32,167 nucleotides of DNA, from positions 1 through 32,167 of the IMG/VR virus record IMGVR_UViG_3300001282_000035; one strand, given 5' to 3'. Of the stretch, positions 1-7,892 are shown in pieces. Positions within the stretch are counted from its first letter, which is position 1; every line of letters begins with the position of its first letter. This DNA is from a virus. Made by a program: the position numbers and the translations under genes. The notes beneath the pieces were generated by a model. It was not told the DNA's origin and searched no databases. It worked only from the letters and a program-made list of their open reading frames with translations.

Positions 1-856
1 TAACATGACTAGACGTGCACTGTGTCTTCATCTCATTCTTGAAGATCAGACGAACTGTCTCACGACTTGCCCAGTCACCAAAGAACGGAGTACCCTTGTA
101 GTAACCAGTCTTTGGAAGTGCACGAGACTCATTCTCGACAGGAAGTAGTTCATATGCGTATACTTTATCAATATCAAGATTGAACAACTGGTTATAATAT
201 TTGCGCGCGAGAGTCCTTGTTGCTTCTTCAGGATTAGTCTGACGCATCAGGTGGTGGCGCAGATCGATGTTACCGAAGTAGAACTCAGCAACCTTACTAT
301 CGGGCTTGATAAAGCTATCAAGGCCTTCCTTCAGTGCACCGTGTAGTGTCTTAAAAGGAACCGAGTTGACATGCCAACCTGGACGGTACATGCAGATAGC
401 ATGACTATCGCCGGCGACCACATTGCCCATGTGTGTGATATTCTTGATAGTTATGGCTGTATTCTCGATACGCTTTAGATTTTCCCAGTCAACCTTTACC
501 CAATCAGGATGGATCTCGCCCTTCATACGTGGCTGCAGCATCTCAGAGTACTTAGGATGATCTATCCACAGAGAATGGACCTTGCCCTTGAACTGTGAGT
601 ATCGGATCAGGTTGTCGATACCACCATAGTTCTTCATGCCGCCGAATAGGTTGAGAGATCCACCCCAGTCATTGCCGTGGTAGACGTAGATCTCATCAAA
701 GGAATTGATGTCAGGATGAATGTCACCGGTACGATCTAGGTGTACATCGTATCCAATCTCCTCCAACTGGTTCGCATAGATCGCCGCCTGAGCAGCACGA
801 TGCGAATGGATGTTGGAGGAGACATGGGTGAATGGGGAGGTGACGAGCGTTCTCAT
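1..856 (-). CDS. SGNH-hydrolase-like protein, partial (C-terminus beyond window)
   Basis: The frame is open from an ATG at 856 to the window edge, giving at least 285 residues with no stop. Two motifs suggest an SGNH/GDSL-type hydrolase: GDSH at residues 149-152, where the nucleophilic serine block would be, and FGNIDLRHH at 194-202, which resembles the G-E/N-D-x-R-x-H oxyanion block of SGNH-like families. Residues 1-140 look like a separate alpha/beta domain rich in Trp, His and Gly. The gene starts 8 bases after the PLP-enzyme gene, so both are probably cotranscribed, and it lies in an apparent DNA-modification cluster. The ribosome binding site is weak. A role in trimming or transferring a group on modified nucleotides would fit but is inference. 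A glycosyltransferase-like N-terminal domain is an alternative reading. The C-terminal residues, including any Asp-His pair, are not visible here. Confidence 0.75.
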   Translation of the reverse strand, partial: MRTLVTSPFTHVSSNIHSHRAAQAAIYANQLEEIGYDVHLDRTGDIHPDINSFDEIYVYHGNDWGGSLNLFGGMKNYGGIDNLIRYSQFKGKVHSLWIDHPKYSEMLQPRMKGEIHPDWVKVDWENLKRIENTAITIKNITHMGNVVAGDSHAICMYRPGWHVNSVPFKTLHGALKEGLDSFIKPDSKVAEFYFGNIDLRHHLMRQTNPEEATRTLARKYYNQLFNLDIDKVYAYELLPVENESRALPKTGYYKGTPFFGDWASRETVRLIFKNEMKTQCTSSHV

Positions 857-864
857 ATTATTCA

Positions 865-1767
865 CTATACATCAAGGGCGGCATAATGTACATCATTTTT
901 TGGCCAATCACGGTAACTATTTACGCGATCGTAAATGGTAGGATCATTCAGAACTGGTTCTGATCCTACGTTCCAGAATAGGATGTTCCTGCCGGTATTC
1001 TTAGGAATGTACTTCCATACCTTACCATCATACGTATCTATGCAAGGAAACGGTGGAAGGTTGCCAGCCTTCTCACTCTGTTGGAAAGGCATCGGTTCAG
1101 AGATAACATCGGCGCGGCCAAGTTCACCAGCCTTCAGGTTACGTGACACAGCAACCGAATGGAACTTGGCATTCGGCCATGCAATCTGCATTGCTCTCGA
1201 AAGAACGCCGGTCGAGATGGCAACATAAACCTCATCAGGTTCTGGGATCTTAGATGCAGCCTTGACGATACCGGCAGTCACAAGTTCATGCTTTAGACCA
1301 AGAGGGACAAAGAATGCATCATCCTGTGTATTAGCCCAGTCACTGGCAATCTTGTTTAGGTTCGGCATTGCAGCAATACGATGGAACGATGCCTCTGCAC
1401 CACGCTCAATGCAACATGCCTGATGGTGCGAGATTCTCTTGGCAGAAGGCATGAATAGCTTGACCTTCTTATCATAACGTTTGGCAACATCAAGGATAGA
1501 GACACCGGCAAGACCTGTACGTGGCTGGACATACACAATAGTCGACTGATTGATTTTTGACATCAGACAGTCACCACCGCGTACCTTGGTTCCTGTGATA
1601 AGATCATCACGGACACACCGAACACCGTCGTGAACCGTAACGACAGGATCAGGATAAGGATCAGACCATGTTCCGGCCAGTTCTAGATAAAAATCCTTGG
1701 CACCTTGCCAACTACGATATCCAACATCCTTGTTATAACCATCTACAACATGTTTATCATGACTCAT
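865..1767 (-). CDS. Fold-type II PLP-dependent enzyme (tryptophan synthase beta/ACC deaminase superfamily)
   Basis: 300 residues. The segment VRDDLITGTKVRGG (about residues 52-65) matches the PLP-lysine region of the ACC deaminase/D-cysteine desulfhydrase/threonine synthase group, with Lys61 as the likely Schiff-base lysine. STGVLSRA (about 185-192) is in the position of the Gly/Ser/Thr loop that binds the cofactor phosphate. Proteins of this superfamily catalyse beta-elimination, beta-replacement or deamination of amino acids. The start overlaps the stop of the upstream transferase-like gene by 4 bases (ATGA), so the two are translationally coupled. PLP enzymes accompany amino acid:DNA transferases in thymidine-hypermodifying phages, so a role in processing an amino acid attached to a DNA base is plausible. 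Free amino-acid metabolism is the alternative. Confidence 0.85.
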   Translation of the reverse strand: MSHDKHVVDGYNKDVGYRSWQGAKDFYLELAGTWSDPYPDPVVTVHDGVRCVRDDLITGTKVRGGDCLMSKINQSTIVYVQPRTGLAGVSILDVAKRYDKKVKLFMPSAKRISHHQACCIERGAEASFHRIAAMPNLNKIASDWANTQDDAFFVPLGLKHELVTAGIVKAASKIPEPDEVYVAISTGVLSRAMQIAWPNAKFHSVAVSRNLKAGELGRADVISEPMPFQQSEKAGNLPPFPCIDTYDGKVWKYIPKNTGRNILFWNVGSEPVLNDPTIYDRVNSYRDWPKNDVHYAALDV

Positions 1768-2915
1768 GCCATATTCCTTACCAGTTGTTTGTACTGATCC
1801 ACACTCAGACCAGCTTTATCTATTATATAGCCGTCTGATGGGTGGTTGGTCATTCCATTAAACGTATCTACTAAGCCCAGATCAAGCATCGCTCTTTGCC
1901 GTCCGTAAGGATGGTCCTTAATTCTGCAAGAAGACCACACGGAATCAAAGCATAGATGATTGTAGTCTGATCCTGGTTTGACATAGTTTTCAACCCATCG
2001 GATGAAATCGCAACAGACGTCTTCTGCATCATAGGGATAGGCACCTGTATCGGCATAGATCTTCTCCATAACGTTATCCAGGAATACTTCCTGCTTCACT
2101 CTGTTAGTATTGATTGCTAGATACGAGATACACTCAACAGCATTCGTACCGTAGTAGAACATGCTTTCCTTGTTGACATACTGAGGATACCAGTCAGCAA
2201 TATCAGCAATGAATGCAGCGTACTGGAATCGATAGACACGAAGGCCATGTCTTTGGTTCCAAGCAAACATCCATTCACCGATCTCACGAAGATCCCTCTT
2301 GGCATTAGATCCTTCAAGCCACCCAGCTAGTTCACGACAAAGCTTCGGTGCAAACTCAGACAAGTAGTAATCGCCGGCCTTCCTATAGTTCTTACCCTCA
2401 GGAATCTTAGGGAAAGCTGGGAACTGATATCCTACCGACGTATAGAATGGATATGGATAATTGTTCAACCGACGAACCATGTCTTCGATTGAATTGCATT
2501 CGTATAAGTGTGGAAGGATTGTGTTGTGGTATCCAGACGGCTTTTTCGAGTAATTAATGCCAGACCCAGTGATGCGATGTAACAGAAAGACATAAAGCCA
2601 TTCTGGGAGGCTAAAATAAGTGTGCCTGCCTGTCCAATCGCGGGCAATGTACCCACGTTCGCGCGTATGGAGTCCCTGTTCCATCTTGTGCCAGTATGGA
2701 TGTTCAGGAGTCCAACCATAGAACACATCGTTTACGATCTGAGAAAAGCCGGCAAACTTACGGTTGACTACATCATAGAGTTCTACATTTTCAAGAAGGT
2801 TATCGGCCATGGCCGACTCCTTATATGGAATCGTGCCTAGGTTACACTTGGCCTGTTGGTCCTTGGCCAGTTCAAAGTATCGAAGATACTCGTCATAGTA
2901 TTGTGTGGTTTCCAT
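1764..2915 (-). CDS. Probable amino acid:DNA transferase-like protein (aGPT-Pplase type)
   Basis: 383 residues, mostly alpha-helical, with no signal peptide or membrane segment. Highly patterned blocks include RITGSGINYSKKPSGYHN (114-131), YPFYTSVGYQFPAFPK (155-170), YRFQYAAFIADIADWYPQYV (228-247) and FYYGTNAVECISYL (253-266). From memory, this block pattern resembles the phage family called alpha-glutamyl/putrescinyl-thymine pyrophosphorylase or amino acid:DNA transferase, which replaces an activated hydroxymethyl group on a base with an amino acid. I could not search to confirm it. Context agrees: it sits directly between a PLP enzyme (4-base overlap) and dCMP deaminase (1-base overlap), next to a nucleotide hydroxymethylase. 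Alternatives are another helical base-modification protein, such as the helical domain of the 5-hmdU kinases, or an unrelated conserved phage protein. The function is tentative; the reality of the gene is certain. Confidence 0.6.
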   Translation of the reverse strand: METTQYYDEYLRYFELAKDQQAKCNLGTIPYKESAMADNLLENVELYDVVNRKFAGFSQIVNDVFYGWTPEHPYWHKMEQGLHTRERGYIARDWTGRHTYFSLPEWLYVFLLHRITGSGINYSKKPSGYHNTILPHLYECNSIEDMVRRLNNYPYPFYTSVGYQFPAFPKIPEGKNYRKAGDYYLSEFAPKLCRELAGWLEGSNAKRDLREIGEWMFAWNQRHGLRVYRFQYAAFIADIADWYPQYVNKESMFYYGTNAVECISYLAINTNRVKQEVFLDNVMEKIYADTGAYPYDAEDVCCDFIRWVENYVKPGSDYNHLCFDSVWSSCRIKDHPYGRQRAMLDLGLVDTFNGMTNHPSDGYIIDKAGLSVDQYKQLVRNMA

Positions 2916-3361
2916 TATTCTTCTTCATGACACAGGAACATCACACTGGCTTCCCTGAACATCTTTTCAGTTGTCTTCATAGATGTCCTCCAGGTATCAG
3001 AGATATTCTTAGGATGTTCCATGATAACCTTGGTGATTCCTACCTGAATGATACCCTTGGCACACTCAGAACACACAGGAAGGCCAACAACATATAGTGT
3101 AGCACCATCAAGTGATACGCCGTTATGACATGCATTGTAGATTGCATTCATCTCACCATGCACAACGTACTTGTACTTCTCCTCACGATCATTATATCGA
3201 TCGTCAGTGTCCTTGATGCCGCGAGGAAACCCGTTGTATCCCTGACTGAGGATCTGACCCTTAGAACCAACAGCAACGGCTCCAACCTTTACCGATGGAT
3301 CCTTTGACCAGGTAGCAACTTCCTTGGCCATATCAAGGTAACGGCGTGTCCACTTGTTCAT
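2915..3361 (-). CDS. cd: Deoxycytidylate (dCMP) deaminase
   Basis: 148 residues. It contains the zinc-dependent cytidine/dCMP deaminase signature: HGEMNAI (His68, catalytic Glu70) and PVCSEC (Cys97 and Cys100 as zinc ligands). The N-terminal DPSVKVGAVAV strand and the GYNGFPRG loop are typical of dCMP deaminases. The enzyme converts dCMP to dUMP, feeding dTMP synthesis, and acts in the cytosol in the phage dNTP-synthesising complex. T4 Cd is longer (193 residues), so this is a compact version like those of many other bacteria and phages. It overlaps the hydroxymethylase gene by one base (TAATG), so the two enzymes that compete for dCMP are made from the same message. It could supply dUMP for a thymidine pathway, but no thymidylate synthase is present in this window. 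Confidence 0.93.
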   Translation of the reverse strand: MNKWTRRYLDMAKEVATWSKDPSVKVGAVAVGSKGQILSQGYNGFPRGIKDTDDRYNDREEKYKYVVHGEMNAIYNACHNGVSLDGATLYVVGLPVCSECAKGIIQVGITKVIMEHPKNISDTWRTSMKTTEKMFREASVMFLCHEEE

Positions 3362-4011
3362 TACTTCACCATATCAAAATGACGTTCATATACGTGGAGG
3401 TTGCCGACATTCCAGATGATCTTAGGTTCACGAACTAGTTGTAGATCGTCACACAGCCGGTCGGCAACATAATTCTGCCATGCATAGTCATTACGATACC
3501 CAAAGACGACGTCATTAGAACGCATCTGAACTACAACAATCAACCGTTCATCACGGATCATATATTGAACGGCATTGGTGCACATAAAGTCTGACATGCC
3601 ATTTTCATTATAATCTTCCCACATACTAGGCCGAGTATAGATCATCACAGCACGACGACTATTAGGATTAGTATGCAGCTCGTTAAGGACGTTTAGATAC
3701 TGCAGCCCGTTATTTTTATGATAGATTGCCCAACCATAGTTAGAGTTGATCTTACCTTCAGTAGAGGCAACCTGTTCCCAGATGGCAGGAGTCTTACCAG
3801 GAATATCCTTGACGTACAGAGACATCGACTTATACCAATCGAGCTCACGCTCTACGTACTCTTCATTGACTTCGCCAAAGATAGTCGGTTGGTCTGCTTC
3901 GAAGTTTGCACCGATCATCTCAATAGTCTTGACACCGGTCTTATCAATGACAAAGTTCTCAGCAGCAAGCTCGTTGATGAAGTGCTGACGAATGTCGGAA
4001 ACCTTAAGCAT
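3361..4011 (-). CDS. 42: dCMP hydroxymethylase (T4 gp42-like)
   Basis: 216 residues of the thymidylate synthase superfamily, strongly like T4 gp42 as I recall it: VIDKTGVKTIEMIGA near the N-terminus, KINSNYGWAIY, SRRAVMIYTRPSM, DFMCTNAVQYMIRD and RSNDVVFGYRNDYAWQ. Cys144 is the catalytic nucleophile (T4 Cys148) and Asp175 aligns with T4 Asp179. In thymidylate synthases and dUMP enzymes that position is Asn, and the Asp favours dCMP. The predicted reaction makes 5-hydroxymethyl-dCMP with methylene-tetrahydrofolate, replacing cytosine in phage DNA and protecting it from host nucleases. The protein is about 30 residues shorter than T4 gp42 at the C-terminus. Its start overlaps the upstream stop by one base. 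An hmC kinase or a host nucleotide kinase would be needed next and is not in the window. Confidence 0.93.
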   Translation of the reverse strand: MLKVSDIRQHFINELAAENFVIDKTGVKTIEMIGANFEADQPTIFGEVNEEYVERELDWYKSMSLYVKDIPGKTPAIWEQVASTEGKINSNYGWAIYHKNNGLQYLNVLNELHTNPNSRRAVMIYTRPSMWEDYNENGMSDFMCTNAVQYMIRDERLIVVVQMRSNDVVFGYRNDYAWQNYVADRLCDDLQLVREPKIIWNVGNLHVYERHFDMVK

Positions 4012-4343
4012 TATGCCATCTCCAAATATACGGTGTATCGACCTTTGTTATTTCCATTGGTTGACCTCGTTGACTTTTTGATCTGATACACCCAGTTATG
4101 AATAGTATTCTTTATAACATCATGTTTAATAACAAGATCTTTAGTCAGACTTTTTTCATCTATGCTGCTAAAATGGTGAGGAGGAAGCATGTCAACAGAC
4201 CACTGATTGTCATGAACTCGGGCTGATATGATGTTAGTATATAGTCCATCTTCAACAGCCAACTTAGTCAGTTTAACACAGCGGTTTGGCCAATAACAAC
4301 CAAATGATGGATAATCTGATAAATCAAATTTAACTCTGCTCAT
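4011..4343 (-). CDS. Hypothetical protein, 110 aa
   Basis: I do not recognise this protein. It has no signal peptide, membrane helix or clear motif. The first half is rich in Trp, Tyr and Pro (PSFGCYWPNRCVK), and the second half is basic with a Thr/Asn/Lys stretch (KKSTRSTNGNNKGR). The start has a good Shine-Dalgarno (AAGGTGG) and the stop shares one base with the gene 42 start, so it belongs to the nucleotide-metabolism operon and is translationally coupled to it. Its composition is more AT-rich than the enzymes around it, as for the other small genes up to 6000, which suggests variable accessory content. A small nucleic-acid-binding protein is possible from the charge but not supported by any motif. 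Confidence 0.75.
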   Translation of the reverse strand: MSRVKFDLSDYPSFGCYWPNRCVKLTKLAVEDGLYTNIISARVHDNQWSVDMLPPHHFSSIDEKSLTKDLVIKHDVIKNTIHNWVYQIKKSTRSTNGNNKGRYTVYLEMA

Positions 4344-4344
4344 C

Positions 4345-4677
4345 TTACTTTACCACCTTAAGCCGGTTGAGATAATCACGAGTTACTGACTGACCTTCCA
4401 TCTTGCCGCGGATATACGACACGGCAAAGCTGGCATAGTTGATCAGATCTTTGTAGGTATCTTCGAGAGACTCAAAGTTTGCAGTCTCGCCAGACTCAAG
4501 AAGAGACTGTGCACGAAGCATCTTGCCATGCATTGTATCGTGGATCGAGTCGACACCACGGCGATAGTGCATTGCCTGAAGTACGTTCGAGTTAGGGTTC
4601 TGATAGTCCTGAGACTTCTTGAGTTGCAGTTCGATGCATTCGCGCAGGACTTTTACTGATTCACGTTCATTAGTCAT
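4345..4677 (-). CDS. Nmad1-type protein (nucleotide modification associated domain 1, DUF1599)
   Basis: 110 residues. The pattern KKSQDYQNPNS (20-30), RRGVDSIHDTMHGKMLRAQSLLESG (39-63) and NFESLEDTYKDLINYASF (67-84) matches the DUF1599 family, renamed Nmad1 because its members cluster with enzymes that modify DNA bases. The helical layout with paired acidic residues suggests a small ligand- or nucleotide-handling protein; the family's reaction is not established to my knowledge. It lies one gene upstream of dCMP hydroxymethylase and ends one base before the next gene starts, so it is part of the same operon. Its presence independently supports reading 1-4680 as a base-modification region. A good GAAGGA-type ribosome binding site precedes the ATG at 4677. 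Confidence 0.8.
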   Translation of the reverse strand: MTNERESVKVLRECIELQLKKSQDYQNPNSNVLQAMHYRRGVDSIHDTMHGKMLRAQSLLESGETANFESLEDTYKDLINYASFAVSYIRGKMEGQSVTRDYLNRLKVVK

Positions 4678-4689
4678 AATATATCCTTC

Positions 4690-4986
4690 TTATGCAAATA
4701 CTTTTTGGTATTGACTATGTAACTCTACCACGCTTTTGATTTCTTGTACATCATTAATTTGCTTAAGTGAAGAACAAATTTTATATCCAAAAGATATGGC
4801 TTCGGACTGAGTTTTAAATGATGCACATCCTTTACCACACCAATCACTGTGTTTTTTGCCATTCGGCATATAATTACTAACTGCAAATCGTGTAACATAC
4901 TTGTTAGTACCTTTACGATAGTAGCAGTTAAATTTTTGATTTCCACCGTCCTGGGTGGCTCCATAATAATGGTTAGAAATTTTCAT
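4690..4986 (-). CDS. Hypothetical protein, 98 aa
   Basis: Function not recognised. The sequence is basic and aromatic near the N-terminus (NCYYRKGTNKYVTRFAV), followed by WCGKGCASFKTQSEAISFGYKI. The run of a short beta-hairpin-like segment followed by Fkt-xx-EA is reminiscent of AP2/Arm-type small DNA-binding folds, but the match is too weak to name. WCGKGC (about residues 49-54) is the only Cys pair close together, and no second pair that would make a zinc site is obvious. An AAGGAT ribosome binding site precedes the ATG at 4986, and the gene is separated by about 12 bases from each neighbour, typical of small early phage genes. The codon use is AT-rich like its neighbours at 4011-4343 and 4999-5442. 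Confidence 0.7.
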   Translation of the reverse strand: MKISNHYYGATQDGGNQKFNCYYRKGTNKYVTRFAVSNYMPNGKKHSDWCGKGCASFKTQSEAISFGYKICSSLKQINDVQEIKSVVELHSQYQKVFA

Positions 4987-4998
4987 AATATAATATCC

Positions 4999-5442
4999 TT
5001 ATTGCTTGTACGAAGAGATAGAAAGGTCATACATTTCACTAATCTTTTCAGGATTAGTAATCGTCCGGACCTTCTTCATTTTTGTCAGATCATACATGCG
5101 CATGTCTGCATTACGTGGACCAAAATTATTAACAACGAAGAAACTATCAGGAGTTGCTTCATAGATAGCAATATGTTCATCACGAGCTGTAGGATTTGAT
5201 ACGAAAAACAGTTTATCTGCTGTATCGGCTTTATACCATTGAGAACGTTCTAATGGCATTGCACAGTGCTTTCGAATAACCGTGCGGACTTTAACTTCTA
5301 CCTTTGTGTCATCGGCTATGATATCTTTATGCATATCATACATGTTACTACTAAAGGTTACATTTTTATATTCACCCGAATCGATTAGATAGTCAATTAC
5401 AAGTCGTTCGCCGAGTGCACCTGTTTTTACGATATTAGTCAT
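4999..5442 (-). CDS. Probable PD-(D/E)XK-fold nuclease-like protein
   Basis: 147 residues. The N-terminus KTGALGERLVIDYLIDSGEY, then DMHKDIIADDTKVEVKVRT (about residues 36-54), gives the spacing of a PD-(D/E)XK catalytic core: Glu in the first helix (GERL), Asp at HKDI, and E-V-K in EVKVRT. Many small phage and restriction-like proteins begin the same way (T-G-x-x-GE-x-L). The predicted role is a Mg2+-dependent nuclease or a nuclease-fold DNA-binding protein in the cytosol, possibly attacking host or competitor DNA that lacks the phage's modification. That target is inference. The gene sits in a run of small AT-rich accessory genes and has a short AAGGA-like leader. The core motifs are visible, but the family assignment is from motif spacing only. 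Confidence 0.6.
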   Translation of the reverse strand: MTNIVKTGALGERLVIDYLIDSGEYKNVTFSSNMYDMHKDIIADDTKVEVKVRTVIRKHCAMPLERSQWYKADTADKLFFVSNPTARDEHIAIYEATPDSFFVVNNFGPRNADMRMYDLTKMKKVRTITNPEKISEMYDLSISSYKQ

Positions 5443-5451
5443 AATATTTCC

Positions 5452-5478
5452 TTGATTTTAGATTGTTGATTTTAGATT
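5452..5478 (-). repeat. Tandem 13-base repeat in the leader of the nuclease-like gene
   Basis: TTGATTTTAGATT occurs twice (5452-5464 and 5466-5478), separated by a single G, so the period is 14. It lies in the 53-base gap between the 87-aa gene and the nuclease-like gene, just upstream of that gene's ribosome binding site. It may be a slippage duplication or a pair of binding sites. Nothing else in the gap is recognisable. Confidence 0.7.
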
Positions 5479-5495
5479 TAAGGTTCTACGCAAAA

Positions 5496-5759
5496 TTAAA
5501 TTCGACTATAGTGTTTATTCCAACCCGAGTCGGTGACCCGAAGGCCTTCGGATGCAAGAAGTGGACGCCACATAGATTCGCACACATACTTAGAGGTGTT
5601 TGCATTTTGGATATCATAGATAAGACGATTAACTGCTGCAGTTTGACGGACAGTCTTTGTTGGGAATGTTGCCAGGATTTCCAAAGCTTTGGTCTTGGCT
5701 TCATTCAAAGGAAGCTTATCAAGTGTGCCAAGAATGGTAAGTTGTTCGTCTTTTGTCAT
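5496..5759 (-). CDS. Hypothetical protein, 87 aa
   Basis: I do not recognise this gene. The N-terminal 60 residues are helical (MTKDEQLTILGTLDKLPLNEAKTKAL is cut here for length; see positions 1-26) and contain several Leu/Ala repeats, and the C-terminus has Trp64, Trp79 and mixed charge. No catalytic motif, membrane helix or signal is visible. An AAAGG ribosome binding site precedes the ATG at 5759 and lies directly after a perfect 13-bp inverted repeat (5774-5808), so translation could depend on that structure. An overlapping out-of-frame ORF (5486-5704) is a shadow. The protein is typical in size for small early T4-type genes that target host functions, but nothing in it says which. Confidence 0.65.
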   Translation of the reverse strand: MTKDEQLTILGTLDKLPLNEAKTKALEILATFPTKTVRQTAAVNRLIYDIQNANTSKYVCESMWRPLLASEGLRVTDSGWNKHYSRI

Positions 5760-5773
5760 GATATAAAGGCCTT

Positions 5774-5808
5774 TCAGGTTGGTATAAGCTTATCCTATAC
5801 CAACCTGA
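5774..5808 (-). promoter_or_regulatory. Perfect 13-bp inverted repeat in a 5' leader
   Basis: Arms TCAGGTTGGTATA (5774-5786) and TATACCAACCTGA (5796-5808) are perfectly complementary around a 9-base loop. The element fills most of the gap between the 64-aa membrane protein and the 87-aa gene. On the minus-strand message the 3' arm ends directly before the AAAGG ribosome binding site. There is no T-tract, so it is not a standard intrinsic terminator. An mRNA stability or processing hairpin, or a translational control element, is more likely. Confidence 0.7.
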
Positions 5809-5823
5809 GTTAATTGTACACAG

Positions 5824-6018
5824 TTATTTTAGTAACGCACCGATCCATGATAACCACACCGGAATATAAAACAAAAGTGATATGAACGGTGCAATGTTAT
5901 CACGGTACTTCCAGCGGCGGCCGCTCTTTGATACTGACCGGGTTTTTCCCCATTCGCCCGGGAAAAAATACCCGAATGCCAATATCAAATAACCTGGCCA
6001 CCACAGGAAGTACCTCAT
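5824..6018 (-). CDS. Small membrane protein, 64 aa
   Basis: 64 residues with two hydrophobic segments: about residues 4-19 (FLWWPGYLILAFGYFF) and about 44-62 (ISLLFYIPVWLSWIGALL). A basic Arg/Lys/Ser linker (GKTRSVSKSGRRWKYR, about 24-39) lies between them. This predicts a helical hairpin in the inner membrane with the positive loop in the cytoplasm. The stop-start junction with the upstream MazG-like gene is TAATG, so the two are translationally coupled. Small two-helix phage proteins can act in membrane remodelling, superinfection exclusion or lysis timing, but no motif selects among these. I do not recognise a named family. Confidence 0.7.
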   Translation of the reverse strand: MRYFLWWPGYLILAFGYFFPGEWGKTRSVSKSGRRWKYRDNIAPFISLLFYIPVWLSWIGALLK

Positions 6019-6425
6019 TACTTCAGCCGTGCCAGCAATCCGTGGTTACCGGCGTGTGATGGCGCTTCCCATCCAGCCGGCTTGATGAGATCCGGCAATC
6101 CAAGAGGATTCGGCCTGCTTGCCTTCACACCAACTTCCTTGGCCATATTTGCACGAAGGACACGATCCCATGCATTATAACTATCGATGCCCATTGCATC
6201 CAATGTACCAATAGCAACAACACAAAGGTCAATCAGCCCATCAACAATCTCTTCGGCATCATTATCACGTACGGCATTCTTAGTCTCGGTTAGTTCCTCA
6301 TCAAGAAATGCCATACGGAATTCAAGAAACTGCTTGAGCTTCTCCTTATCAAAATCAAAAACCTTTTCGTTTACTTGGTAGTACCTGTGCATAACACCAA
6401 TATCACGTACCCAATCTGCACTCAT
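6018..6425 (-). CDS. MazG-like nucleotide pyrophosphohydrolase
   Basis: 135 residues. Helical protein with the all-alpha NTP-pyrophosphatase metal motif: LDEELTET (about 41-48), with paired Glu residues, and AEEIVDGLIDLCVVAIGT (about 57-74), with E-E-x-x-D and E/D-x-x-D spacing. These enzymes hydrolyse (d)NTPs to (d)NMP plus pyrophosphate. In an hmC phage such an enzyme could do the job of T4 gp56, removing dCTP (and giving dCMP to the hydroxymethylase and deaminase), which fits the genes at 2915-4011. Other MazG-type substrates such as dUTP or (p)ppGpp remain possible. The C-terminal ASRPNPLGLPDLIKPAGW is an extension conserved in many phage versions. A GGAGA ribosome binding site precedes the ATG at 6425. 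Confidence 0.8.
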   Translation of the reverse strand: MSADWVRDIGVMHRYYQVNEKVFDFDKEKLKQFLEFRMAFLDEELTETKNAVRDNDAEEIVDGLIDLCVVAIGTLDAMGIDSYNAWDRVLRANMAKEVGVKASRPNPLGLPDLIKPAGWEAPSHAGNHGLLARLK

Positions 6426-6478: not shown

Positions 6479-7033
6479 CTAACTTTGTAGTGCATCAATA
6501 AATTCTTGTGCCGCGGCGCTAATCACCGGCAACCCACCTAATGACTTATTCTTCAACTTCTTGACAAGCTTCCTAGCCTGTTCCAGATGATACGTGTTAG
6601 CACGTGATGTATGTGCGATACCATCTAGATGATCCATTTCATGGAGGAATACACGAGCAGTCATGCCAGTGAATGTCTTAGTAGCCGTCTCGCCATCAGG
6701 TGTAGTGAAGCGGACCTTGATGCTCTTTGGCCTTTTGATCTTTACGAAAAGATTAGGATACGAGAGGCATCCTTCCTCGAGCATAACCGTCTCAGTTGTT
6801 GCATCCACTACACGAGGATTGAAGACACCAATGATTTCCTCTGCTCGCATCACGAATGCACGTGTACGCACACCGATCTGGTTAGCTGCAAGACCCATGC
6901 CATCATTCTCACGCATGGTCTCGGCCAAATCTGTATAAAGTTGACCAGGATCCACAACCGGGTTCTTGAAGTCGAACGCCGGCATCACCTCACGTAGGAT
7001 CGGGTTGGTCCTATTTAGAATAGTTGAAATCAT
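6479..7033 (-). CDS. def: Peptide deformylase
   Basis: 184 residues with all three deformylase motifs: GMGLAANQIG (45-54), EEGCLSYP (86-93, Cys89 as metal ligand) and HEMDHLDG (131-138, His131 and His135 as ligands, Glu132 catalytic). The enzyme removes formyl from the N-terminal Met of new proteins at the ribosome. Phage versions, known from cyanophages and some other T4-type phages, are usually compact, but this one keeps a C-terminal helical tail (about 150-184) and so approaches bacterial length. The start overlaps the stop of the upstream 70-aa gene by 4 bases (ATGA). It may sustain deformylation during the burst of phage protein synthesis. All active-site residues are present, so it should be active. 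Confidence 0.95.
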   Translation of the reverse strand: MISTILNRTNPILREVMPAFDFKNPVVDPGQLYTDLAETMRENDGMGLAANQIGVRTRAFVMRAEEIIGVFNPRVVDATTETVMLEEGCLSYPNLFVKIKRPKSIKVRFTTPDGETATKTFTGMTARVFLHEMDHLDGIAHTSRANTYHLEQARKLVKKLKNKSLGGLPVISAAAQEFIDALQS

Positions 7034-7242
7034 GCCATTGCCATCTGGATCTTGGCGATCACTTCATCGGCAGTATCAAATTTATCAGTCGACAGAGAAA
7101 TTTCTTTACCCTTGTTCATTATGATGTACCCGGAATCAGCGTAACTTCCCTGTGCTGGAACCTTTGTCACACGCTCAATGTGTCTAACATTGATATAGTG
7201 ATCAACTTTATTCATGTCTCGTACCCAAATAAATCTTGTCAT
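7030..7242 (-). CDS. Hypothetical protein, 70 aa
   Basis: 70 residues, not recognised. The predicted beta-rich half (residues 1-52, with alternating hydrophobics such as FIWVRDMN and GYIIMNKGKEISL) is followed by a helix (DTADEVIAKIQMAMA). Many bacterial and phage proteins of this size with a strand-strand-helix layout are small regulators or adaptor proteins, but no family motif is visible. It is joined to both neighbours by ATGA overlaps: its start overlaps the endonuclease stop at 7239-7242 and its stop overlaps the deformylase start at 7030-7033. Thus the endonuclease is inserted precisely upstream of this gene without separating it from its own operon. Confidence 0.75.
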   Translation of the reverse strand: MTRFIWVRDMNKVDHYINVRHIERVTKVPAQGSYADSGYIIMNKGKEISLSTDKFDTADEVIAKIQMAMA

Positions 7243-7892
7243 GCTGCAATCCTAATAATATGGCCTTTATATGGTTTACCATTTTTGGCCGCCTGTGTAA
7301 ATCGTATGTAATTATAACCATGTTCAATGCAGTATTGTTTGGCATTATCCACAATAACACCATCTACAAAATAAGTAAACCTTAATTTTTGTTTGTGGTC
7401 TTCAGATTTTGGTTTTCGCATTTTATCTTTGTGTGATTCTGATAATTTAGAACCCTTTAAAGAAGACACTAATCCAGTTTTTGATTCGGATATTTTTTGC
7501 TTAGTTTCATTGCTGTGGGATCGACCAAACATTGGATTGTTCTCACCAGTCATTTGCAAACTTTTATTTTGTTTCCACTGATCGGTGTGTTCTTTGCCAG
7601 TCATACCATTTAAATGTCCATACATGGCACCACCGGTTCCACCCTGATGCACATTGTAAACTGGCTTTAATTGTTCAATTAATTCTATTTCTTTTTGAGT
7701 TGCCTCAAACTTTGTATCAAACTGTTCTATAAGTTCTATAGTAAAGTTATTAATACCATATTTTTGAATAGCTCGTGATATTACCATTTTAGATTTACAG
7801 TGTTGGTTTAATCTAGTCTGTAATGGTTGTTTAGTGTAACCAATATAGAAATTTCCATTGATGATATTAATAATTTTATATATTTTAAACAT
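7239..7892 (-). CDS. GIY-YIG homing endonuclease (Seg-like, with NUMOD3)
   Basis: 217 residues. GIY-YIG nuclease domain at about 1-90: KIYKI (3-7), FYIG (15-18), Arg27 in LQTRLNQH, and a Glu near 74 in KEIELIEQLKPVYN. Two to three NUMOD3-type DNA-recognition repeats follow (NPMFGRSHSNETKQKISES, about 116-134, and KLSESHKDKMRKPK, about 149-162), and a C-terminal DNA-binding tail follows them. These free-standing enzymes cut phage DNA lacking the gene and spread by repair. It is strikingly AT-rich compared with 46, 47 and the deformylase, as expected for a mobile gene. No good Shine-Dalgarno is present, and expression appears to be set by the late promoter and hairpin at 7891-7930. It ends in an ATGA overlap with the 70-aa gene. 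Confidence 0.93.
   Translation of the reverse strand: MFKIYKIINIINGNFYIGYTKQPLQTRLNQHCKSKMVISRAIQKYGINNFTIELIEQFDTKFEATQKEIELIEQLKPVYNVHQGGTGGAMYGHLNGMTGKEHTDQWKQNKSLQMTGENNPMFGRSHSNETKQKISESKTGLVSSLKGSKLSESHKDKMRKPKSEDHKQKLRFTYFVDGVIVDNAKQYCIEHGYNYIRFTQAAKNGKPYKGHIIRIAA

Follow-up and report, generated by a model that had tools for sequence, protein, structure and literature searches.

In a 32,167-nucleotide stretch of viral DNA (IMG/VR record IMGVR_UViG_3300001282_000035, positions 1 to 32,167; hereafter the window), a piece of about 32 kb from a T4-like virus whose terminase is closest to those of Sinorhizobium phages phiN3 and phiM12, we found a cassette that joins a dCMP hydroxymethylase and a dCMP deaminase to three further genes. 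These encode a protein that we call P3, a fold-II pyridoxal phosphate (PLP) enzyme and an SGNH-fold protein. Judged by its conservation together with a dCMP-type hydroxymethylase, this gene set very probably hypermodifies 5-hydroxymethylcytosine (hmC). That the added group is derived from an amino acid has about an even chance, with the homology of the PLP protein to its counterpart in phage M6 as the main argument. An amino-acid-type hypermodification built on hmC had been proposed from the sequence of the window alone (the original prediction); the hmC basis of that proposal stood, whereas the amino-acid nature is plausible through the M6 homology but not shown. The features are as follows.

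2..865, minus strand: SGNH protein, 5' part of the gene, with the 3' part beyond base 1 (PF09198, phrog_7922, Foldseek, conserved Ser and His)
865..1767, minus strand: fold-II PLP enzyme, family of the phage M6 cluster PLP enzyme (phrog_7093, hhalign)
1764..2915, minus strand: P3, mostly helical, virus-borne family, predicted DNA-level transferase (sequence and structure searches; paralogue C16)
2915..3361, minus strand: dCMP deaminase (PF00383, E=9e-22; phrog_174, E=6e-46)
3361..4011, minus strand: dCMP hydroxymethylase of the T4 gp42 type with Asp175 (PDB 1b49, E=3e-107)
4011..4343, minus strand: 110-aa open reading frame (ORF) of the same operon, found in closest relatives only (ORF call, no family assignment)
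4345..4677, minus strand: Nmad1 (DUF1599, nucleotide modification associated domain 1; PF07659, E=4e-7)
6018..6425, minus strand: MazG/PRA-PH-type nucleotide pyrophosphohydrolase (PF01503, E=7e-10)

The cassette genes form a minus-strand chain running from the hydroxymethylase through the deaminase, P3 and the PLP protein to the SGNH protein, which is interrupted at base 1; the 110-aa ORF and Nmad1 stand ahead of it. As predicted for a single operon, the junctions (4011/4011, 3361/3361, 2915/2915, 1764-1767 and 865/865) are 1- to 4-base overlaps. The earlier gene list was correct in the coordinates of the genes that it named, among them the hydroxymethylase with Asp175, the deaminase and Nmad1, whose identities are borne out by the matches above, but it missed the 110-aa ORF between the hydroxymethylase and Nmad1. 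It had also placed the SGNH-like gene at 1-856; the fold was right and the extent was not, as the reading frame starts at either 865 (GTG) or 856 (ATG) and base 1 truncates it.

The hydroxymethylase is 63-66% identical to gp42 homologues (66% to that of Citrobacter phage Moon). D175 (in '...GYRNDYAW') is invariant, and the dCMP-specifying Asp recurs in every common sequence pattern of the relatives. Replacement of the dUMP-specifying Asn by this Asp confers dCMP specificity, and the residue has been tied experimentally to modified-cytosine contigs, on which a PF01503 domain accompanies thymidylate synthase homologues (PMC8670742). The MazG-like pyrophosphohydrolase of the window is a possible dCTP-removing enzyme serving hmC incorporation. 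A minus-strand ORF ('c32') seen in four loci proved to be the hydroxymethylase gene read in antisense, which simple gene calling had produced as an artefact.

An argument for a common function comes from the distribution of the set. A P3 search gave 26 loci, a profile search of viral contigs 512 relatives and a search with a divergent P3 141. P3 was not found in the 50,697 phage records searched, and its only occurrences in genome assemblies were four contigs of metagenome-assembled genomes; these are probably viral, and we rejected a place for P3 in cellular genomes. Loci with enough flanking sequence numbered 84, comprising 43 unique P3 loci in a first set and 41, mostly of the divergent lineage, in a second. 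All 84 carry the PLP gene (43/43 and 41/41), 83 the SGNH gene (43/43 and 40/41) and 77 an adjacent hydroxymethylase with the dCMP-specifying Asp (37/43 and 40/41). The order is usually SGNH-PLP-P3 in the second set, in contrast to P3-PLP-SGNH in the first. The set is kept in two independent lineages with differing gene order, and its staying together while the order changes points to one pathway. Five of the six first-set loci without an adjacent hydroxymethylase belong to one group with the order SGNH-P3-C16-PLP, two long records among them. Record G007 (256 kb) has no neighbouring hydroxymethylase but encodes a dCMP-type homologue elsewhere ('GLTFDAPFF'), and its thymidylate synthase gene is split across the record ends; in G006 only an ordinary thymidylate synthase and no dCMP-type homologue was seen. 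The open-access literature searched, a scope outside which most subscription journals lie, yielded no description of a cassette of this kind.

These counts bear on the view that the virus makes plain hmC only and that P3, the PLP enzyme and the SGNH protein have some other role, for instance in the metabolism of amino acids or in taking over the host. Functionally unrelated genes often share the T4-like replication block, and no chemistry is known for the set. Against this, the three genes are almost always linked with a dCMP-type hydroxymethylase, the SGNH protein carries a lobe resembling T4 beta-glucosyltransferase (BGT) and the PLP protein is homologous to a DNA-hypermodification enzyme, as detailed below. 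We therefore regard plain hmC as quite improbable.

The predicted fold-II PLP enzyme (865-1767) is well supported by its match to phrog_7093 ('threonine dehydratase', E=6e-39) and by the conserved lysine 61. Profile comparison by hhalign aligned it to the PLP protein of the M6 cluster with 97.5-97.9% probability (E 8e-12 to 4e-13), and the two have in common the PLP lysine and a C-terminal signature of the PPFP..YD.K.W...FWN(V/I)G type. By Pfam, the M6 cluster genes encode ADDT, PALP, radical SAM, HMUDK kinase and HMUDK_hel proteins. These alignments make the PLP protein a homologue of its counterpart in the M6 cluster for amino-acid-derived thymidine modification; the modified base of M6 has been described (PMC6449724).

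How the PLP enzyme would act is less clear-cut. Beta-replacement and dehydratase reactions are typical of fold-II PLP enzymes. Together with the 'threonine dehydratase' label of phrog_7093, this suits an alternative in which the enzyme makes a free amino acid (e.g., a diaminopropionate-like one) that P3 and C16 load onto hmC, with the SGNH protein as an editing esterase. A PLP relative in Microcystis phage Mae-JY30 that adjoins ParB/sulfiredoxin-like genes would fit as well, since this fold includes free-serine kinases. The known neighbourhoods of the family speak for action on DNA instead. In M6, as the 2022 NAR article 'Pathways of thymidine hypermodification' is said to describe, amino acids are attached first and reshaped on DNA, and such pathways reportedly use PLP-dependent decarboxylases. 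In addition, Erythrobacter phage R6L gp1 (L029:6855-9284) is a ParB-like/DNA methyltransferase fusion into which a PLP domain from this family is built, between 'LDPFAGG' and 'SCPPY'. The loading of a premade amino acid thus appears improbable to us.

P3 is predicted to be mostly helical and had no match in Pfam, NCBIfam or the PDB by sequence or fold. According to the original prediction, 1764-2915 resembles amino acid:DNA transferases, and here all direct tests were negative. The corresponding family, PF18724 (ADDT), was found in none of 61 diverse P3 and C16 members, hhalign gave no match between P3 and the M6-type family profiles, and the probability against the ADDT proteins of M6 and Delftia phage phiW-14 was 1.4%. 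On these grounds membership of P3 in the ADDT family is not supported. Only database names agree with the prediction: Foldseek against viral models (BFVD) returned just four confident P3 relatives, two of which, A0A6J5L8T5 (a 67%-identical orthologue) and A0A6J5LCY1 (330 aa), are named 'Amino acid:DNA transferase domain-containing protein' in UniProt. Many relatives of the cassette encode a further protein, C16 (29/43 loci of the first set and 8/41 of the second; the window is without it). C16 is apparently a paralogue of P3, as suggested by the hhalign alignment of the two (P=0.004 over 99 columns) and a common E-D..C signature. A motif of HMUDK_hel (PF18723), G.G...GL followed 50-90 residues on by LC.F, occurred in 9 of 26 C16 proteins, in none of 1816 background ORFs and in none of 46 P3 proteins, which is suggestive, the motif having been chosen post hoc. 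With the HMUDK_hel core profile, 31% of C16 proteins scored above the background 99th percentile, and the scores were weak.

The SGNH protein, complete at 346 aa in contig L003, consists of two parts. Its C-terminal half has the SGNH fold, as originally predicted; its N-terminal half, which had been overlooked, resembles the N-terminal lobe of T4 BGT. In the AlphaFold model (predicted template modelling score 0.73), Foldseek against the PDB found SGNH enzymes (platelet-activating factor acetylhydrolase, sialate esterase) with a probability of 1.00 and T4 BGT (1qkj) with 0.98, both with E-values of 0.003 and above. The N-terminal segment also aligned weakly to BGT by sequence (PF09198, residues 24-105, E=0.0026, below the cut-off; phrog_7922, E=0.045). 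The SGNH half has the motifs GDSH... and GNID.RHH... and a histidine at 316 (numbering of the full-length relative); the Ser of GDS and the His are conserved across 60 diverse SGNH proteins, and the Asp of the classic DxxH is replaced.

A BGT-like half could mean that the cassette places a sugar on hmC, as in T4, through a new glycosyltransferase, with the SGNH protein acylating or deacylating the sugar and the PLP enzyme making or modifying a sugar substituent. The second, UDP-glucose-binding lobe of BGT was not found in the SGNH protein, the alignment being confined to the N-terminal segment. Because this sugar-nucleotide lobe is absent, glucosyl transfer by the SGNH protein on its own seems unlikely from the model. 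Fold II is also not the fold of sugar aminotransferases, and the PLP family is common to the non-sugar M6 pathway.

The neighbourhood of the SGNH gene lends the sugar reading more weight in cultured viruses, where relatives of the protein include Aeromonas phages 44RR, 31 and 25. These phages have gene 42 (dCMP hydroxymethylase) and no glucosyltransferase, and the fate of their hmC was left open in 2010 (PMC2993671). In 50AhydR13PP (L220:1784-5053), the SGNH gene adjoins genes for UDP-galactopyranose mutase and a glycosyltransferase-like protein, and the layout in phage 25 (L226:1782-5053) is the same. 44RR (ORF233, L028:8004-10388) and 31 encode the SGNH protein as a fusion with a domain that weakly resembles HMUDK_hel. 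As the Pfam match lies below the cut-off (E=0.0012) and hhalign matched 12 columns only, we rejected the C-terminus of ORF233 as HMUDK_hel and keep it as a weak lead. The SGNH-containing genes are candidates for hmC modification in those Aeromonas phages that lack a glucosyltransferase, and so offer a candidate answer to the 2010 question; as 44RR, 31 and 25 are cultured, the idea is partly testable.

Contig L003, 99.4% identical to window positions 1-6200, extends the view beyond base 1. Past this point lie the complete SGNH gene, a DUF3310 gene and, two genes downstream of the SGNH gene, a GT-A-like glycosyltransferase; other relatives continue into clamp and clamp-loader genes. The glycosyltransferase favours a sugar, as it is present in 33/43 flanked loci of the first set. 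However, only 2/41 second-lineage cassettes have it, and related glycosyltransferases are encoded by other T4-like phages, where searches found no P3. As the second lineage is nearly always without this gene, we rejected it as a core part of the cassette. We consider a sugar on hmC possible though unlikely. A kinase had been predicted to lie beyond the window; L003 shows none left of base 1. Likewise, models of PF18748 (hydroxymethyluracil (hmU) DNA kinase), PF18723 and PF18724 found none of these families in the eight long records examined, which span 90-256 kb and all bear the cassette; a weak PF18724 match in G011 was rejected as the gp44 clamp loader.

Weighing these lines together, the best overall explanation, to which we give roughly even confidence, is that the cassette makes a hypermodified cytosine in four steps. 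In the first, which is strongly supported, the dCMP hydroxymethylase would yield hydroxymethyl-dCMP while the deaminase and the MazG-like pyrophosphohydrolase hold dCTP low, so that hmC enters phage DNA. The SGNH protein would then act on hmC in DNA at its 5-hydroxymethyl group, most likely acylating the hydroxyl to create a leaving group and thereby substituting for the kinase of hmU pathways. In a third step P3, with C16 in many relatives, may form a bond between the 5-methylene carbon and an amino acid or some other amine. Finally, by homology to the M6 enzyme, the PLP enzyme might alter the amino acid once it is in place, decarboxylation being one example. The modification would likely serve to shield phage DNA from nucleases that recognise cytosine or hmC. 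That the SGNH protein activates the hmC hydroxyl in place of a kinase is a doubtful element of this scheme. The kinase-free route as a whole, in which an SGNH acyltransferase joined to an hmC-reading lobe of glucosyltransferase origin works with P3/C16 and an M6-type PLP enzyme, is put forward tentatively and is no likelier.

Several points weigh against the four-step scheme. There is no nucleoside chemistry for any cassette member. P3 is without detectable kinship to any protein of known activity in sequence, profile and fold searches, and its structure model is middling (predicted local distance difference test score 60). That the SGNH half transfers an acyl group is a guess, given that many SGNH proteins are hydrolases and that the Asp of DxxH is replaced. 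Moreover, the position of the SGNH gene among sugar genes in Aeromonas phage 25 suits glycosylation equally well. As to the kinase, the long records are mostly fragments of uncertain completeness and other kinase families are possible, which leaves room for an unrecognised one.

Amino-acid DNA hypermodifications known so far start from hmU or, in one case, from carboxymethylcytosine. If the scheme is true, an hmC route would represent new chemistry, involve two enzyme families that are as yet uncharacterised and possibly offer a substitute for the activating kinase, and the kinase-free route would be present in hundreds of T4-like aquatic viruses. Like the systems of M6 (5-(2-aminoethyl)deoxyuridine), Salmonella phage ViI and phiW-14, the cassette derives a hydroxymethylpyrimidine from a thymidylate synthase homologue, and with M6 it has in common the PLP enzyme family. 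A gene of the uracil-DNA glycosylase (UDG) superfamily type lies near the M6 cluster (L031:11800-12336), and a small UDG-superfamily-like protein (PF03167, E=0.004) likewise stands ahead of P3 in L012 (9481-9897) and relatives, 21/43 flanked loci of the first set. In contrast to these systems, which are built on hmU, the cassette is built on hmC; it has P3/C16 and the BGT-SGNH protein where they have PF18748, PF18723 and PF18724, and no M6-type radical SAM gene was among its neighbours. It acts like the thymidine hypermodification systems, but membership is not established, as the defining kinase and ADDT were sought and not found.

With T4 hmC glucosylation, the cassette has in common the T4-type hydroxymethylase, the T4-like genome and half a BGT-like fold. 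BGT itself was not found with the cassette, PF09198 matching only the first half of the SGNH protein; alpha-glucosyltransferase was not searched with a model of its own. The 5-carbamoyloxymethylcytosine system found by MetaGPA puts a non-sugar group on hmC, as proposed for the cassette, and has the same partner domains (dCMP-type thymidylate synthase homologue, PF00383, PF01503), but it uses an hmC carbamoyltransferase, of which the P3 cassette has none (PMC8670742). Finally, the 5-carboxymethylcytosine-glycine amide of phage S-B43 (CmoA/CmoX/CmoY) carries an amino acid on the cytosine C5 substituent, as proposed for the cassette, but its handle is a carboxymethyl group made through a C5-methyltransferase homologue and an asparagine-synthetase-like ligase, without a hydroxymethylase (PMC12783734).

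A C5-cytosine methyltransferase homologue (PF00145, E=1e-19) directly follows the SGNH gene in about 10 of the 43 first-set loci (L014, L017, L019-L021, L025), an odd find in phages whose DNA should contain hmC. Among cultured viruses, its closest relatives are methylases of the S-TIM5 cyanophage type, S-B43 was not among the tblastn matches, and the homologue was rejected as CmoX. In a few viruses, the surroundings of the cassette include an asparagine-synthetase-like ORF of the PP-loop type (L017:3698-4777, L014:2220-3311) that looks by eye like the CmoY class of amide ligases, with no match in Pfam. In the window itself, all on the minus strand, a small conserved ORF (4999-5442) with a D...E.K pattern might be a PD-(D/E)XK-type nuclease, with no match in a family search. 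An ORF at 7239-7892 with a GIY-YIG-like start, probably a homing endonuclease, lies between gp46 and a small ORF and is present in few relatives. A peptide-deformylase-like protein (6479-7033) adjoins the cassette, a position that is kept in most first-lineage loci.

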